NCBI GenBank assembly: GCA_026390445.1
Contig: JAPLFX010000095.1
Coordinates: 1 to 49,984 of the forward strand
Direction of reading: 5' to 3'
Length of the DNA stretch: 49,984 nt
DNA from: Pseudomonadota bacterium
GTDB lineage: Bacteria; Bdellovibrionota_B; Oligoflexia; Oligoflexales; CAIYRB01
A program made the position numbers and the translations under genes. Positions within the stretch are counted from its first letter, which is position 1, and every line of letters begins with the position of its first letter. The notes under the pieces were generated by a model. It did no database searches and was not told where the DNA came from. It saw only the letters and a list, made by a program, of their open reading frames with translations. Positions 32,808-39,972 of the stretch are shown here, one piece after another.

Positions 32808-34080
32808 GCAGCTAGCACCCTTGGTCGTGGTGGGTGGGGGCGCGGCCGGATATTTTGCCGCCATTCGTTTGGCGGAGCTAGTCGCTGGGCGCCCGGTGAT
32901 GTTGCTGGAGGCGACGCAAAAGGTTCTCACCAAGGTGAGGATTTCTGGCGGAGGTCGCTGCAATGTGACGCATCACTGCTTTGATCCTGGGACATTGACG
33001 GCAAATTATCCGCGTGGGGCCAGGGAGCTGCGCTCATGTTTTACGCGGTTTCAACCCCGCGACACGGTCGCCTGGTTTGCGGCGCGCGGCGTCCAGCTAA
33101 AGACCGAGGCCGATGGACGCATGTTTCCCATCACCGATGATTCGCGCACTATTTCTGACGCCCTCGAACTGGCGGCGCGCCAAGCGAGGGTGGAGGTGCG
33201 ACTTGGTGCTAGCGTGCAGGCGCTGGAGCCACTGGAAACTTTAGCACCAGCGATGTCATCTTGCGGCCGCTTCAAGCTGCGCCTCAAGGATAGTCAGGAG
33301 CTGGTCGCAGCTGCCGTTTTACTCGCAACTGGAAGTGCGCCTGCGGGCTTGCAACTTGCATCATATGCGGGACATGTGGTCGATCCGCATGTGCCTTCGT
33401 TGTTTACCTTTAATGTCAAAGATGAGCGGATCTCTGGTCTTGCCGGTATCGCTTTTGCCGAGGTTAAGCTGAGTTTAGGCGTTGGTGACGGTAAAGAACG
33501 ACTCGAACGCAGCGGCCCCTTGCTGATCACCCACTGGGGACTAAGCGGCCCAGCCGTCCTCAAGCTTTCTGCCTTTGGCGCGATCCTGCTTCATGCCAAC
33601 GCTTATAAAGCGGAATTGAAGATCAACTTTTTACCTCAGTTGAGTGCGGCGCAGATCGAGCTTGAGCTGCGTAACTTCAAGCACAGTGCGGCAAAAAAGC
33701 AGGTGGCCAAGCACCCGCCCTTTCCCGAGTTGCCGCGGCGCTTCTGGCAGCAACTCGTCGTCAGCTTGAAGATCGACCCAGAGCTGGTCTATGCCGATTT
33801 GTCCAAGACGGATATCCAAAGCTTGGTGGTCGAGCTTAGTCAAGGGCGTTATGCGATTCATGGTAAGGGTGTCTTTAAGGATGAGTTCGTTTCGGCCGGT
33901 GGTGTGACCTTGAAGGAGGTTGATTTTCGCCGCATGGAAAGTCGCGTAGTGCCGGGCTTGTTCTTTGCCGGGGAGGTGCTGGCAGTTGATGGCATCACCG
34001 GTGGGTTTAACTTTCAGGCGGCTTGGACTACGGCTTGGATTGCGGCGACGGCGATGGCTGAGACGGTGACGGGGTCTTAG
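32800..34080 (+). CDS. YhiN/HI0933-family FAD-dependent oxidoreductase
   Basis: This 426-residue flavoprotein has the N-terminal dinucleotide motif VVVGGGAAGYFAA and the family hallmark KVRISGGGRCNVTH. The internal GRMFPITDDSRTI segment and the C-terminal FAD-closing GGFNFQAAWTTAW are also present. Members reduce unknown substrates (BaiN is one described member), and the specific role here is unknown. The TTG start overlaps the upstream stop by a few bases. This is the last gene of the long plus-strand run; a 263-base convergent gap follows. Confidence 0.88.
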   Translation: MSEQLAPLVVVGGGAAGYFAAIRLAELVAGRPVMLLEATQKVLTKVRISGGGRCNVTHHCFDPGTLTANYPRGARELRSCFTRFQPRDTVAWFAARGVQLKTEADGRMFPITDDSRTISDALELAARQARVEVRLGASVQALEPLETLAPAMSSCGRFKLRLKDSQELVAAAVLLATGSAPAGLQLASYAGHVVDPHVPSLFTFNVKDERISGLAGIAFAEVKLSLGVGDGKERLERSGPLLITHWGLSGPAVLKLSAFGAILLHANAYKAELKINFLPQLSAAQIELELRNFKHSAAKKQVAKHPPFPELPRRFWQQLVVSLKIDPELVYADLSKTDIQSLVVELSQGRYAIHGKGVFKDEFVSAGGVTLKEVDFRRMESRVVPGLFFAGEVLAVDGITGGFNFQAAWTTAWIAATAMAETVTGS

Positions 34081-34151
34081 CTCGACTTTTGCCCTTTTTT
34101 AGGAGGTGTACCAAAGCCTCTGAACACGGGCGCATAGGTCGGTGAGATCCC

Positions 34152-34202
34152 GCGCACCGAAGTCCGCGTTTACTGCAGTGCCCCGGCGCACCGATGTCCG
34201 CG
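34152..34202. repeat. pair of 17-base direct repeats in the convergent gap
   Basis: GCGCACCGAAGTCCGCG (34152-34168) recurs as GCGCACCGATGTCCGCG (34186-34202), identical at 16 of 17 positions and 17 bases apart (end to start). The function is unknown. Confidence 0.7.
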
Positions 34203-34230
34203 ATTAGATTCGCGCCTAGAATCCAGCCAT

Positions 34231-34302
34231 CCTGCCTTCCCGGCCTCCCAGTTTTTGGGCAGCGGCTTTTATTCCGCGCATCTGGGAGGAAGGAAAGGCA
34301 GG
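34231..34302. repeat. long imperfect inverted repeat between convergent genes
   Basis: The left arm is 34231-34251 and the right arm 34282-34302, each 21 bases; 18 positions pair, with a 30-base spacer. Pairing extends outward for about five more positions with one mismatch. The arms begin CCTGCCTT and end CTCCCAG. No T-tract follows either way, so it is not a textbook terminator, but it could end transcription from both sides or be a dispersed intergenic repeat element. The remainder of 34081-34343 has no gene. Confidence 0.65.
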
Positions 34303-34343
34303 AGGGCAGCGTTTTTGCAGCAAAGCCACCCGACCATAGTAGC

Positions 34344-36362
34344 CTAGTGAAAGAGCCCACCGACAAAGTTGCCGACGCCATTGATCACAGACCCAACGGT
34401 ATTGCCGACGGTATTCACTGCATTGCCGACCACATTGCCTACCGTCGTAACTACGGTGGCCGTGACGTTGAACACGCCGCTCATCACGCCGCCGACGACT
34501 TCCGCAGCGAATCCGAGTCCTTGTAAGATGCCAGAAGCAACTGCAGCAGTTACTTGGAATACATCTCGTAAGACCACGCCAATCACTGCAGCCGAAAAAC
34601 CCACCACCTGCAAAACCCCCGCAGCCGCTTGTGCGCCGAGCTGGAAGACTCCGGCCAGGACCTGGCCAACCACCGCAGCTTCGTAGCCGAGTCCCTTTAA
34701 TATCTCCGCGCAGAGGCGACCATCAGCTTGGAACGCGCCTTTCAAAATCTGCCCCAGGTCCATTGCTGAGATCCCAATCCCGTGCAACAGGCCAGCGGCC
34801 GCTGCGGCTGGAAGGCCAAAGATGTTCTTGAGGACGACGGCGATGTCGTAGCCAACACAGCCAATATGCTGCAAAGCGGCAACCGCAGCGCTGGCAGAAA
34901 GTTGAAACACGTCCTTCAGGACGCTACCAATTTCGTTTACACCGAAACCCAGCGCCCGGATCAGTGTGATCGCGGTGGCGACTGGCAGTGCAAACACCTG
35001 CTTTGCCACCAAGCCGAGCTCCAAGTGATGCACGTGGAGAGCAAACAGAGCGGAAAGAGTTGCCTCAGCCGAGAGGGCAAAAGTGCTTTTCAAGACCCAG
35101 CCGATTTCAACGACCGCCGCACCAACACCGATTAAGATCGCAGCCGATGCCTGAGCTGTTTGCGCAAACACGCCCCTAAGCTGCGTCCCGATTTCGAGCG
35201 TGGTAAAGCCAACAGTCCGTAAGACCTGAGCTGCAAGATCGGCCTTGATCAGGAATATATCCCTGAGGACTAGGGCGACTTCACCGGCGACAAAGCCGCT
35301 GGCGCGCAGGATTGGTGCTGACAACTGAGCGCTCAACTGAAACACCGATTTTAGAGCGTTAGCAACCTGGACGGCAGTGTACCCAGCTGAGTGCAGAACC
35401 GAGGCAGCGTCGTTGGCGCTGAGCTTAAAGATCGTCTTTAGCGCATTGCCGACGTCTTCCTCCTTGCATCCCATGCCGAATAGCAGGGCCACCAACGTGT
35501 CCACTTTCATCTGGTGCTTTTTGACAAGATACTGGGCCAGTTGCGCTATATTGTAGCCGGCTGCTAACAGGTCCCGGGCTTCTTTGTCGAGCTTGTCAGA
35601 AAAAACTGTGGCAATGGCTCCACCTACTTCGTCGATGCTGAATCCGATGTTTCGCAATAGAGGCACCACGGTATCGCTGTTCAATTCGCTGCGTTGATGC
35701 AAGTGGCGGCAGATGTCTTCAGCAGTAAAGCCAATGGACTTCAGCAAAGTACCAGTGTCTTCTAGCTTCAGGCTGAAGATGGTGGTGAGACTCGAGCTGA
35801 TATCAGCGATCGGCGCGCCTAGCTTCTGCAAGAGAGAGCCAATTTGGTTGGCATCAGCGGCAAAAACCTTATGTGCCGCCAGCGCGATTTCGATATTCGT
35901 GCATCCGATCCTGTGTAGAATGTCGGTGGACTTGCCGATGTCTAGGTTCAACTTCGATTGGAGTCCCGAAGTAATGCTGGTCGCGTCGAATGCGGCGCTC
36001 AGCAGGGTTATTGCCGCATCTTCAGGTAGCATGGCGTAGGATTCATGCAATACATCGGTGATGTCGTCGGCGCTGAACCCTTGTGCCTTCATCAAGTTCG
36101 TCATCGCCTTGGCATCGTAGTTGTGCTGCGCCTTGACCGCATTGGCGATGGCCAGGGGCGACTGGCCGCTGCCTTTCAAGTCTTTCAGCTGCTGCTCTGC
36201 TGGAGTGGTCGCGATAGTCCGAGCATCCTCCGAACGCGCATGTTTGGAGGCGGTCCGTTGATCGGAGGTTGCGACCTTTTGACCGCAGCCAAGTACGGTG
36301 ATTAATAGCAGCGCACCGACGTTGGCCATCATCCTGCTCTCTATGCTGCGTTTTAAATTCAC
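34344..36362 (-). CDS. lipoprotein built of twenty 29-residue helical repeats
   Basis: This 672-residue protein is not assigned to a family. The GTG start at 36362 has a strong AGGAGG eight bases upstream. The signal peptide ends with VLGC (Cys26). Residues 66-645 are twenty consecutive repeats of exactly 29 residues with no insertions. The pattern is Gly at 1, Phe/Tyr/Cys at 2, Asp/Glu near 6, Ile/Val at 7, Gly/Ala at 8, Leu/Val at 11, Lys/Arg at 12, Phe at 15, Leu at 17, Ala at 19 and Leu at 26. Examples are GFGVNEIGSVLKDVFQLSAS and GYTAVQVANALKSVFQLSAQ. Early repeats are polar and divergent; late ones are hydrophobic and Ala/Gly-rich. The tail (646-672) is a VGNxV-type heptad sequence ending GGLFH. 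It should form an alpha-solenoid tethered to a membrane; function unknown. Confidence 0.85.
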   Translation of the reverse strand: MNLKRSIESRMMANVGALLLITVLGCGQKVATSDQRTASKHARSEDARTIATTPAEQQLKDLKGSGQSPLAIANAVKAQHNYDAKAMTNLMKAQGFSADDITDVLHESYAMLPEDAAITLLSAAFDATSITSGLQSKLNLDIGKSTDILHRIGCTNIEIALAAHKVFAADANQIGSLLQKLGAPIADISSSLTTIFSLKLEDTGTLLKSIGFTAEDICRHLHQRSELNSDTVVPLLRNIGFSIDEVGGAIATVFSDKLDKEARDLLAAGYNIAQLAQYLVKKHQMKVDTLVALLFGMGCKEEDVGNALKTIFKLSANDAASVLHSAGYTAVQVANALKSVFQLSAQLSAPILRASGFVAGEVALVLRDIFLIKADLAAQVLRTVGFTTLEIGTQLRGVFAQTAQASAAILIGVGAAVVEIGWVLKSTFALSAEATLSALFALHVHHLELGLVAKQVFALPVATAITLIRALGFGVNEIGSVLKDVFQLSASAAVAALQHIGCVGYDIAVVLKNIFGLPAAAAAGLLHGIGISAMDLGQILKGAFQADGRLCAEILKGLGYEAAVVGQVLAGVFQLGAQAAAGVLQVVGFSAAVIGVVLRDVFQVTAAVASGILQGLGFAAEVVGGVMSGVFNVTATVVTTVGNVVGNAVNTVGNTVGSVINGVGNFVGGLFH

Positions 36363-36420
36363 GTGACGATCCTCCTAAAATAGTTTGTTTCGGTCTTGTT
36401 ATGTGGTTCTTACAAATAGC

Positions 36421-36448
36421 CTTTCGGCATTTTTTTTCCGTAACTTTA
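36421..36448 (-). promoter_or_regulatory. FliA-like promoter of the 29-residue-repeat lipoprotein gene
   Basis: On the minus strand TAAAGTTA begins at 36448 and GCCGAAAG lies at 36428-36421. This is 7/8 and 6/8 to the sigma-28 elements, but with 16 rather than 15 bases between TAAA and the -10. The predicted leader would be about 50 bases. Confidence 0.4.
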
Positions 36449-36602
36449 AAATATTATGTAACTTAATGATTTTAATAGATTATCCAAATTTAATTGCGCG
36501 TAATATTTTGCCAATGCGCAAACAAATGACATCTGTTTGTAGTTTTTCTTCTGACGCCAATGAGGAGGTGAGTCGAACGTATACAGGAGGTCGTCTCCTT
36601 GC

Positions 36603-36631
36603 TTGACATAATTTAAATTAGTTAATAAAAT
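36603..36631 (+). promoter_or_regulatory. sigma-70 promoter of the response regulator gene
   Basis: TTGACA (36603-36608) and TAAAAT (36626-36631), with exactly 17 bases between, lie in an AT-rich stretch. This is the best housekeeping promoter match in the window. It points to the regulator starting at 36748. Confidence 0.7.
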
Positions 36632-36747
36632 TAATTTGTTGCAACCATTTTCAGCGTCAGATCTGAATGTTTATTGCGGTCTTGCTAAACTAAACTATGA
36701 AAAGTGACGATGGATGGTCTGAAGGTCTTTCTGACCTAGGGAGTGTT

Positions 36748-37674: not shown

Positions 37675-39972
37675 TTAGGTCTTTCTCGTCGTCAGCATGG
37701 CCAAGGTGTGCCTGGCTTTGTCGCTCAGCAGTCCACTTTGGGCGGGAGGTGGCTGGGTGTTCGTTTGGCGCTGCTGCTGCGGCGCCTTGATGACGTTGGG
37801 TGTTGGTTTTGGTGCGCCTGGAATGTGCGGGGTGGCGCTTTGGCCGACTTGAGCTGGGACTTGCGTTGATACGCTTACGGCGCGGCCAAGGCCGGCAGGT
37901 GCTAGGGCCAGAGCCAGGCTCTCGTCGGCAAGCAGTAGGACGTGCAGCGTATCCTCAGTCGCCTGCTCCAGGGCTGCCAGGAAGGCTAGCCGCTCCTTGG
38001 TATGCGTGTGCTCCTCGTCCCAATGGTAGACGGTTAAGGCAAAGGCTTCGGCGGGATGGGTGGCATGGGCGGCACCAGTGAACAAACCGGCCGGCTTTGC
38101 CTTGCTCGTTGCGTGGTGCACCGAAGCCAGAGCGTCGATGAGGTGCGCACTGGCGCATAGCTCGCTGACCGCTTCGTCATGAATCTCTAGCGTGGGCACA
38201 CTGGCCGCGGCGAATGCTGCAGTCCACTCCGTTGCGATGGTTTGACGGCGTTTCTTCAGCATCGCCAGCATGCCGGCTGCTGCCTTAGCCGCGACGGCCT
38301 GGTCTTTGATCAGCGTTAAACGCTGGCGCTTGGTCTCCCGGTAGCGAAGCAGGCTCGACACTTCACTGAGCAAGATGGCCGGGCTGCTTAGATCGACGGT
38401 CTTCTGGCTGCCGGTGGCCTTGCGCCAGTCGAGCAGCAGTCGCTCGACTTGGTTGAGCGCTGTGTGAAAGCGTTGCAGCCGATCGGCAGAGGCGTGATGT
38501 TTGGCCTCGAGCTGCGTCAGGGTCCCGTGGCCTGCGGCGAGCTTTAGCAGGTGGTTGAGGTCGATGTCTTCGGCTAGGTGCGATTGCTTGGCCAGGACCT
38601 GCCAGCGTTGCTTGAGCGTGCCAAAGCCCTGCACGAGTTGTTCGTAGGTGGCGTCGATCGTAGCCAAGGCGGCATCATGCTTTTTGTCGACCAAGGCCAG
38701 GTTTTCTTTGAGTTCGCCTAGGCGACCTAGGGTATAGGTGATGGCCATGTGCGCCGTCTCGAGGTCGGTGACTTCACGTTCGAGCGGGGTTTCTTCAAAT
38801 TGCGCGCCGGGTGTCTCAGAGCGGCTTTTAAAGCGATCAAACCAGGTCTTTTGCTTGTCGGCGCTTAAACTCTCGACCTGCTGCAGGTGGGCCTTTTGTT
38901 TAAGACGTGCAGTGAGCGAGGCCAGGCATGAGGCGAGTTCTGCCTGGGTTTGCTGGTCACCGGTGAGGCCTCCGGCGGCGACTTCGAGGTAGCGGCGAAA
39001 CAGTGGCTCGATCTGTTCAGCGACTTGCTGTCTGGCTTTGCCCATAGCTTGGATCAGACGGGCTTGGGCTTCGATATGGCTCAGTCCGGAGATGGCAGCA
39101 TGGAAATCCACCGCCACGGTCTGGTGCTCGTCGCTGAGTCCGAGTTGGTGGCGTAGCTCGGCGCGCTCCGCCGTGACTTTGGCGAGGTCGTTCTGGAGCG
39201 CCTTGAGGGAGACGCCAGGTTGCAACAGCGGTTCAGCGGCCGCGGCTAACTGGTCGAGCAGTTCGACTTCTTGCACTAGAGAGGAGCACTGATTGCCGTC
39301 TTTTCCTAACAGCCCTTGGGCCTCGCTTTTCAGTTCGTTATATTGGCGGCAGAGTTCGCTATAGCGCAGGCGAAGCGGGTCGAGTTTGCGGCCTAAGGAC
39401 GCGAGGTTTTTAGCTGTGGCGAGTGCGGGGCTGGCGAACCTCTGGGCACAGGTTTTTGCCACAGCGGTCATCTGCGCCTCGGTGGCGGCCTTTAAGCTGG
39501 CTTCTGGTGACACCGGTGCGCCTAGACGCGTCAGGCGGAGCTGGCCGTCTTGATCGTTACCGTCAGGACTTTGGCTGCGGATGTCGAAATGTCCAACCGT
39601 CAGGCGTTCGCTGGCATGCCATGGGGACGAGGCCTGGGTCAGCGGACCATCGAGGCAGGCCTCGGCGAGATCGCGCTCCGCTTCGGCAGCGGCGCACAAG
39701 GCGCCGTCTTTGGCGATACGCGTCTCTTTGCCGCGGCGCTGGATCAGCCAGGTGTGACCGCCATGGTCGCCGAGTTGCAAGGCGACTTCTTGCAGGAGCG
39801 GAGAGGGTATGCCAGTCAGTGCGTAGTCCAACGCGGCGGACACCTGTTTGAGCACTTGGCGGCTTGCGGTGACCGCCAGGTAGGCACGCAGGCGGCCGCT
39901 GGCATGGGTAAACTTCCAAGACTGCCAATCTTGCTCGCCGGTTGGGCGGTAGCGCACGAAGTACAAGATCAA
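37675..39972 (-). CDS. 765-residue coiled-coil protein, YhaN/SMC-like but without Walker A
   Basis: This large, mostly helical protein has extended coiled-coil stretches at about 170-600 (Leu/Ala/Glu/Gln-rich). The first 110 residues have a strand pattern with GGHTWLIQRRGKETRIAKDG, recalling the second lobe of YhaN/AAA_27-type SMC-like ATPases. No GxxxxGK[ST] P-loop is present, and the late VLLLADESLALALAP only faintly resembles a Walker B. The C-terminal 90 residues are Pro/Gln-rich and disordered. The TTG start 39972 is supported by GGGAG seven bases upstream. The gene ends 9 bases from the convergent response regulator gene. It could be a structural protein; function unknown. Confidence 0.6.
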   Translation of the reverse strand: MILYFVRYRPTGEQDWQSWKFTHASGRLRAYLAVTASRQVLKQVSAALDYALTGIPSPLLQEVALQLGDHGGHTWLIQRRGKETRIAKDGALCAAAEAERDLAEACLDGPLTQASSPWHASERLTVGHFDIRSQSPDGNDQDGQLRLTRLGAPVSPEASLKAATEAQMTAVAKTCAQRFASPALATAKNLASLGRKLDPLRLRYSELCRQYNELKSEAQGLLGKDGNQCSSLVQEVELLDQLAAAAEPLLQPGVSLKALQNDLAKVTAERAELRHQLGLSDEHQTVAVDFHAAISGLSHIEAQARLIQAMGKARQQVAEQIEPLFRRYLEVAAGGLTGDQQTQAELASCLASLTARLKQKAHLQQVESLSADKQKTWFDRFKSRSETPGAQFEETPLEREVTDLETAHMAITYTLGRLGELKENLALVDKKHDAALATIDATYEQLVQGFGTLKQRWQVLAKQSHLAEDIDLNHLLKLAAGHGTLTQLEAKHHASADRLQRFHTALNQVERLLLDWRKATGSQKTVDLSSPAILLSEVSSLLRYRETKRQRLTLIKDQAVAAKAAAGMLAMLKKRRQTIATEWTAAFAAASVPTLEIHDEAVSELCASAHLIDALASVHHATSKAKPAGLFTGAAHATHPAEAFALTVYHWDEEHTHTKERLAFLAALEQATEDTLHVLLLADESLALALAPAGLGRAVSVSTQVPAQVGQSATPHIPGAPKPTPNVIKAPQQQRQTNTQPPPAQSGLLSDKARHTLAMLTTRKT

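Follow-up and report, generated by a model that had tools for sequence, protein, structure and literature searches.

A 672-residue protein composed of exact-length repeats raises the question of whether it represents an unrecognised class of membrane-tethered alpha-solenoid, as a preliminary description of the locus had proposed, and of what such a protein might do. Its gene lies on the reverse strand (34344..36362, GTG start) of a 49,984-nucleotide stretch of DNA from a genome of the order Oligoflexales (hereafter, the window). All parts of the gene listed below are on that strand.

A lipoprotein of twenty 29-residue units

The gene is preceded by the Shine-Dalgarno sequence AGGAGG (36371..36376), located 8 nt 5′ of the GTG. 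The encoded protein begins with a signal peptide (residues 1-26; 36285..36362), whose hydrophobic stretch is followed by the lipobox VLG-C26. Cys26 is invariant in the three orthologues, one of which (L012) has an atypical lipobox, SHAC. Signal peptide, lipobox and invariant cysteine together place the protein among bacterial lipoproteins, with lipidation predicted, and the lipid anchor of the preliminary description is retained on these grounds. A polar linker follows (residues 27-65; 36168..36284), modelled with pLDDT values below 50 up to residue 50 and with a lead-in helix at residues 54-64. Searches of Pfam and NCBIfam revealed no enzyme or additional domain in the 672 residues. The GC3 of the gene (0.64) is near that of its neighbours (0.63-0.77), which argues against a foreign composition.

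Residues 66-645 form twenty units of 29 residues without indels, as had been claimed. BLOSUM62 autocorrelation is 0.93, 1.00, 0.85 and 0.81 at lags 29, 58, 87 and 116, respectively, and the value at lag 29 is about 22 s.d. higher than that of the shuffled sequence (−0.74 ± 0.08). Moreover, with a threshold of 5 bits, a profile of the unit detects precisely 20 places, each 29 residues from the next, against 0.28 hits per shuffled protein. The originally described pattern (G1, aromatic 2, I/V7, G/A8, F15, A19, L26) also holds, with F, Y or C at position 2. Unit 14 (HVHHLELG...) does not follow the pattern at Gly1, and the lowest profile score, 13.5 bits, belongs to unit 20. Two features were absent from that description: L11 is among the most conserved columns, and there is a half-unit symmetry at lags 14 and 15 (A4/A19, A8/A23, L11/L26, K12/K27). 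The symmetry is consistent with the unit being a duplicated short helix. No DNA-level tandem repeats were found across the gene, and therefore the unit duplications are old and a recent DNA duplication is ruled out as their origin.

The units grade from polar to hydrophobic along the array (Spearman 0.81), and the same gradient, also part of the preliminary description, is found in both other orthologues (0.77 and 0.73). Charge per unit falls along the window array, which ends in a glycine-rich, charge-free tail with the expected VGNxV motif (residues 646-672; 34347..34427), modelled as a low-confidence helix.

Predicted fold

In a full-length AlphaFold2 model the protein has 40 helices of 10-12 residues (mostly 10-11), two per unit, with a mean pLDDT of 83 that exceeds 90 over most of the centre; the model was built on three orthologue sequences only, and its pTM is 0.58. 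A seven-unit fragment (residues 298-500), modelled with seven aligned array blocks as input, reached a pLDDT of 96.4 and a pTM of 0.88. These models agree with the two-helix solenoid that had been proposed: the protein is predicted to consist of regular tandem two-helix units and, as such, to belong to the alpha-solenoid class.

We compared both models with the PDB using Foldseek. For the fragment, there was no match at E 0.001, and TM-scores were at most 0.30 among the 50 best matches listed; for the full-length model, they were at most 0.27 among the matches listed, which contain de novo helical repeats, TPR proteins (Ski3/TPR) and clathrin-type chains. At these listed TM-scores, the backbone geometries of TPR, Sel1, HEAT, PPR, TALE and mTERF repeats are unmatched in either model. 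From the missing fold matches we infer that the geometry of the predicted superhelix may be novel.

Relatives of the array

Relatives were sought in 58 genomes of the phylum, including six of the genus, and, outside the phylum, in plasmid records. The gene is present in two of the six genus genomes. Its orthologue in one of the five other genomes (G005, MAG contig L011) encodes 508 residues and 15 units, and an orthologue in another family (G030, Oligoflexaceae MAG, locus L012) encodes 636 residues and 19 units. A contig search with the single protein gave no loci, and one with the alignment gave two. Among the 58 genomes, G011 and G056 also carry partial arrays, and a weaker similarity is seen in G023 (E 1.8e−4). 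The G023 protein (L018, 1165-2550) is lipoprotein-like and 461 residues long, with longer irregular helical repeats (GLDLSIRDVLFALG...).

Plasmid records with the repeat come from Deinococcus (three, or four when a Deinococcus query is used), Hymenobacter and Herpetosiphon, and the array proteins in them are annotated as “hypothetical.” A profile built from the window alone detects 16 consecutive units with exact 29-residue spacing in both D. peraridilitoris and D. taeanensis, 8 in Deinococcus QL22, 11 in Hymenobacter and 8 in Herpetosiphon, where the edge of the array has one junction of 30. Across eight proteins, about 100 consecutive unit junctions show almost no indels.

Like the window protein, WP_015231406.1 of D. 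peraridilitoris and WP_225524791.1 of D. taeanensis have a signal peptide with a lipobox (LGSC or LGAC) and then at least 16 consecutive units of the same consensus (tblastn E 1e−17 and 1e−12, one piece covering 67% of the query). They differ from it in having about 180 other residues before the array and short hydrophobic Cys-containing tails, in being plasmid-borne and in sharing only about 30% identity with it. Haur_5003 of Herpetosiphon and WP_243803070.1 of Hymenobacter share the consensus over 8-11 exact-29 units, but they lack a lipobox, and their arrays are confined to the C-terminal part of proteins of 1446-1527 residues. The repeat is thus found in two architectures: in lipoproteins (window family and Deinococcus) and as C-terminal arrays of 1446-1708-residue proteins (Herpetosiphon, Hymenobacter and G011; the G056 protein is incomplete).

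Large array proteins at L009 (404-4744), L008 (608-5191), L020 (320-5446) and L021 are relatives of Haur_5003 without Pfam matches, and a Calothrix plasmid protein matches residues 1-1213 of Haur_5003. By sequence, the large Haur_5003-like proteins appear to be a separate uncharacterised family.

Period and consensus put the window repeat in the same 29-residue family as the Deinococcus, Hymenobacter and Herpetosiphon arrays. Because the exact period recurs in these genera, the repeat looks like an unnamed alpha-solenoid family and not a one-off, present in at least four phyla and patchily distributed. The proposal of an unrecognised class stands in that no Pfam or NCBIfam repeat family matches the protein reliably, whereas the taxonomic spread, with orthologues in G005 and G030 and exact-29 arrays on plasmids of three genera, shows that the window protein is not unique. 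A repeat profile is now defined for “hypothetical” proteins of several phyla.

Two-part evolution of the array

The main new finding on the protein itself is its two-part organisation. Units 1-8 (residues 66-297; 35472..36167) are position-specific. Between the window and L011, they share 13.3 identities of 29 on the diagonal versus 5.7 off it (permutation test, P < 5e−5); between the window and L012, the values for own and other units are 8.1 and 4.9 of 29 (P = 0.0004), and L011 and L012 also exhibit positional preference (P = 0.002). Units 9-15 display no positional preference in any of the three orthologue pairs (P = 0.27, 0.35 and 0.44), and within a protein they are more alike than units 1-8 (9.7 versus 5.4 identities of 29). 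This pattern argues that each of units 1-8 has its own orthologous counterpart and that the later units have been homogenised. Given the absence of positional preference in units 9-15, the changes in array length (20, 15 and 19 units in the window, L011 and L012) most likely fall in the C-terminal part, which in the window comprises the hydrophobic units 9-20 (residues 298-645; 34428..35471).

Genomic context and regulation

In the close relative G002, the flanks of the locus have 90.5-92.6% DNA identity to the window, but 196 bp stand where the window holds about 2.6 kb (34066..36682). This segment is bounded by an HI0933-like gene and a response-regulator gene, and its sole gene is that of the lipoprotein, of which G002 has no copy elsewhere in its genome. 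The empty site in so close a relative makes the gene accessory, and the difference could reflect gain or loss alike. Comparison of the segment with L056 showed a single-gene presence/absence, and no mobile element, transposase or integrase was seen. As most genomes of the genus do without the gene, any role it has is dispensable.

The genomic context yields no functional clue, since the neighbours of the gene differ between G000 and G005. In G005, the orthologue is located elsewhere, among a series of predicted lipoproteins (L011, 4737-10988); judged by eye, one appears VWA-like, one is of unknown type and one has kelch-like repeats. Near the gene in the window, a 765-residue protein (37675-39972, reverse strand) is conserved in all six genus genomes and has no Pfam match. 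PADLOC gave no match for the window protein, and a defence system is rejected on that basis.

The preliminary description had also read a weak FliA-like promoter upstream of the gene and had asked about co-occurrence with flagellar or predatory-lifestyle genes. Neither the promoter nor a flagellar link is supported, and nothing spoke for or against a role in predation. We built a FliA motif from the 9 of 18 flagellin upstream regions of the genus that have a FliA-like site (TAAA-N15-GYCGATGA-like). Eight of these nine promoters score 16.6-18.8 with a spacer of 15, partly by construction, whereas the best site upstream of the lipoprotein gene, TAAA-N16-GCCGAAAG (36421..36448, reverse strand), scores 9.4 with a spacer of 16 nt. 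As many as 124 sites in the window score at least 8, and we judge this one to be background. A suggestive consensus count of 10/12, found in both the window and L011 and equalled by 23 of 400 shuffles, was dropped in view of the genus-specific scores, which lie far above that of the lipoprotein gene and argue against membership in the FliA (sigma-28) regulon. Furthermore, each of the six genus genomes has 8-9 flagellin matches, with or without the lipoprotein gene, which only two of them carry, and we therefore reject a flagellar link.

A proposed tethered scaffold and its alternatives

We propose that the protein is an envelope-tethered alpha-solenoid lipoprotein of an unnamed repeat family that serves as a binding or spacer scaffold, an explanation that we consider reasonably probable. 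In this model, the diacylglyceryl cysteine would tether the N-terminus to the membrane through a flexible 40-residue linker, and the whole exported body would be one solenoid of forty short helices, as predicted by AlphaFold2. Judging by their one-to-one conservation, units 1-8 would most likely be a dedicated partner-binding surface, and units 9-20 would be interchangeable, increasingly hydrophobic copies that lengthen the solenoid. The charge-free glycine-rich tail probably packs against the membrane or other copies. Such a scaffold would most likely present its ligand-binding section at the envelope, at a length that changes as C-terminal units are gained or lost, and the two-part evolution offers a direct test of which units would bind a partner. 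More tentatively, and with somewhat less than even confidence, we extend this explanation to a period-29 family of short helices that has a geometry absent from the PDB, occurs in at least four phyla in two architectures and, in its lipid-anchored arrays, combines a fixed binding section with an expandable one.

The hydrophobic C-terminal units and tail might instead drive homotypic assembly on the cell surface, which would make the protein a surface adhesin or a biofilm or self-assembly protein. The charge-free tail, the falling charge per unit, the variable unit number and the patchy distribution of an accessory gene would all suit such a role, but Pfam and NCBIfam show no adhesin, surface-sorting or secretion domain, and we regard it as unlikely, if the best of the alternatives.

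Somewhat less likely again is that the array is a divergent known solenoid (TPR, HEAT, mTERF or UBA-like) below profile sensitivity. Foldseek's list for the full-length model, with its Ski3/TPR and clathrin-type chains, points in that direction, as do the scores of the Deinococcus relatives for UBA_DHX29 (PF24899), which exceed the cut-off (52, 34 and 32.7 bits versus 27). These scores, however, are sums of partial repeat matches with no single significant stretch, and the window protein itself, at 17.1 bits, falls below the cut-off; without a contiguous match above it, we reject UBA membership. In addition to the low TM-scores listed for the fragment, TPR, Sel1, HEAT, PPR, TALE and mTERF profiles are absent for the protein even at E 10 and for seven array fragments at E 1.

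We give a slightly lower probability to insertion of the C-terminal units and tail into an opposite or neighbouring membrane as a pore or bridge. The hydrophobic gradient is common to the three orthologues, the tail is uncharged, and short hydrophobic tails close the Deinococcus proteins as well; yet much of the hydrophobicity sits at core positions, exposed positions in units 15 and 17 remain polar, and the predicted helices of 10-11 residues would be too short to span a membrane. The hydrophobic C-terminus of the proposed scaffold could reflect internal packing rather than membrane contact. Finally, weak PHROG tape-measure matches (E 7e−5 and 2e−4) would suit a protein that resembles phage tape measures or that is helical through its Ala/Gly-rich composition and has no defined fold. 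This reading is very improbable in view of the exact 29-residue register, the lipobox and the confidently predicted fold, and a phage origin is rejected because the neighbours examined include no phage genes and no relatives were found in the phage records and viral contigs searched.

Comparison with known repeat families

Nothing in Pfam, NCBIfam or the PDB sequences reliably matches the window protein, in agreement with its original placement outside the TPR, HEAT, Sel1, PPR and TALE families. The top Pfam match, PF25296 (“Decapeptide repeat region,” E 5e−5), reaches 23.5 bits, where the cut-off is 45, over one 69-residue stretch and is absent from both orthologues at E 0.1; at about half of the cut-off score, membership is ruled out. 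No description of a 29-residue bacterial helical repeat was found in the open-access papers searched.

As in TPR, Sel1, HEAT, PPR and TALE proteins, tandem two-helix units are predicted to build a solenoid. Those families have periods of about 34-40 residues or more, whereas the window repeat has a period of 29, helices of mostly 10-11 residues in the model and no match to their profiles. Closer in unit length are the mTERF proteins, whose degenerate helical repeats span about 30 residues (PMC4005652). They are also set apart by the lack of a profile match and by their nucleic-acid binding, in contrast to a predicted exported lipoprotein. Exact-period helical repeats are raw material for engineered binders, and TALE, PPR and TPR were each turned into tools after their families had been recognised. 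An exported, lipid-anchored unit of 29 residues with almost no indels would give an additional compact scaffold.
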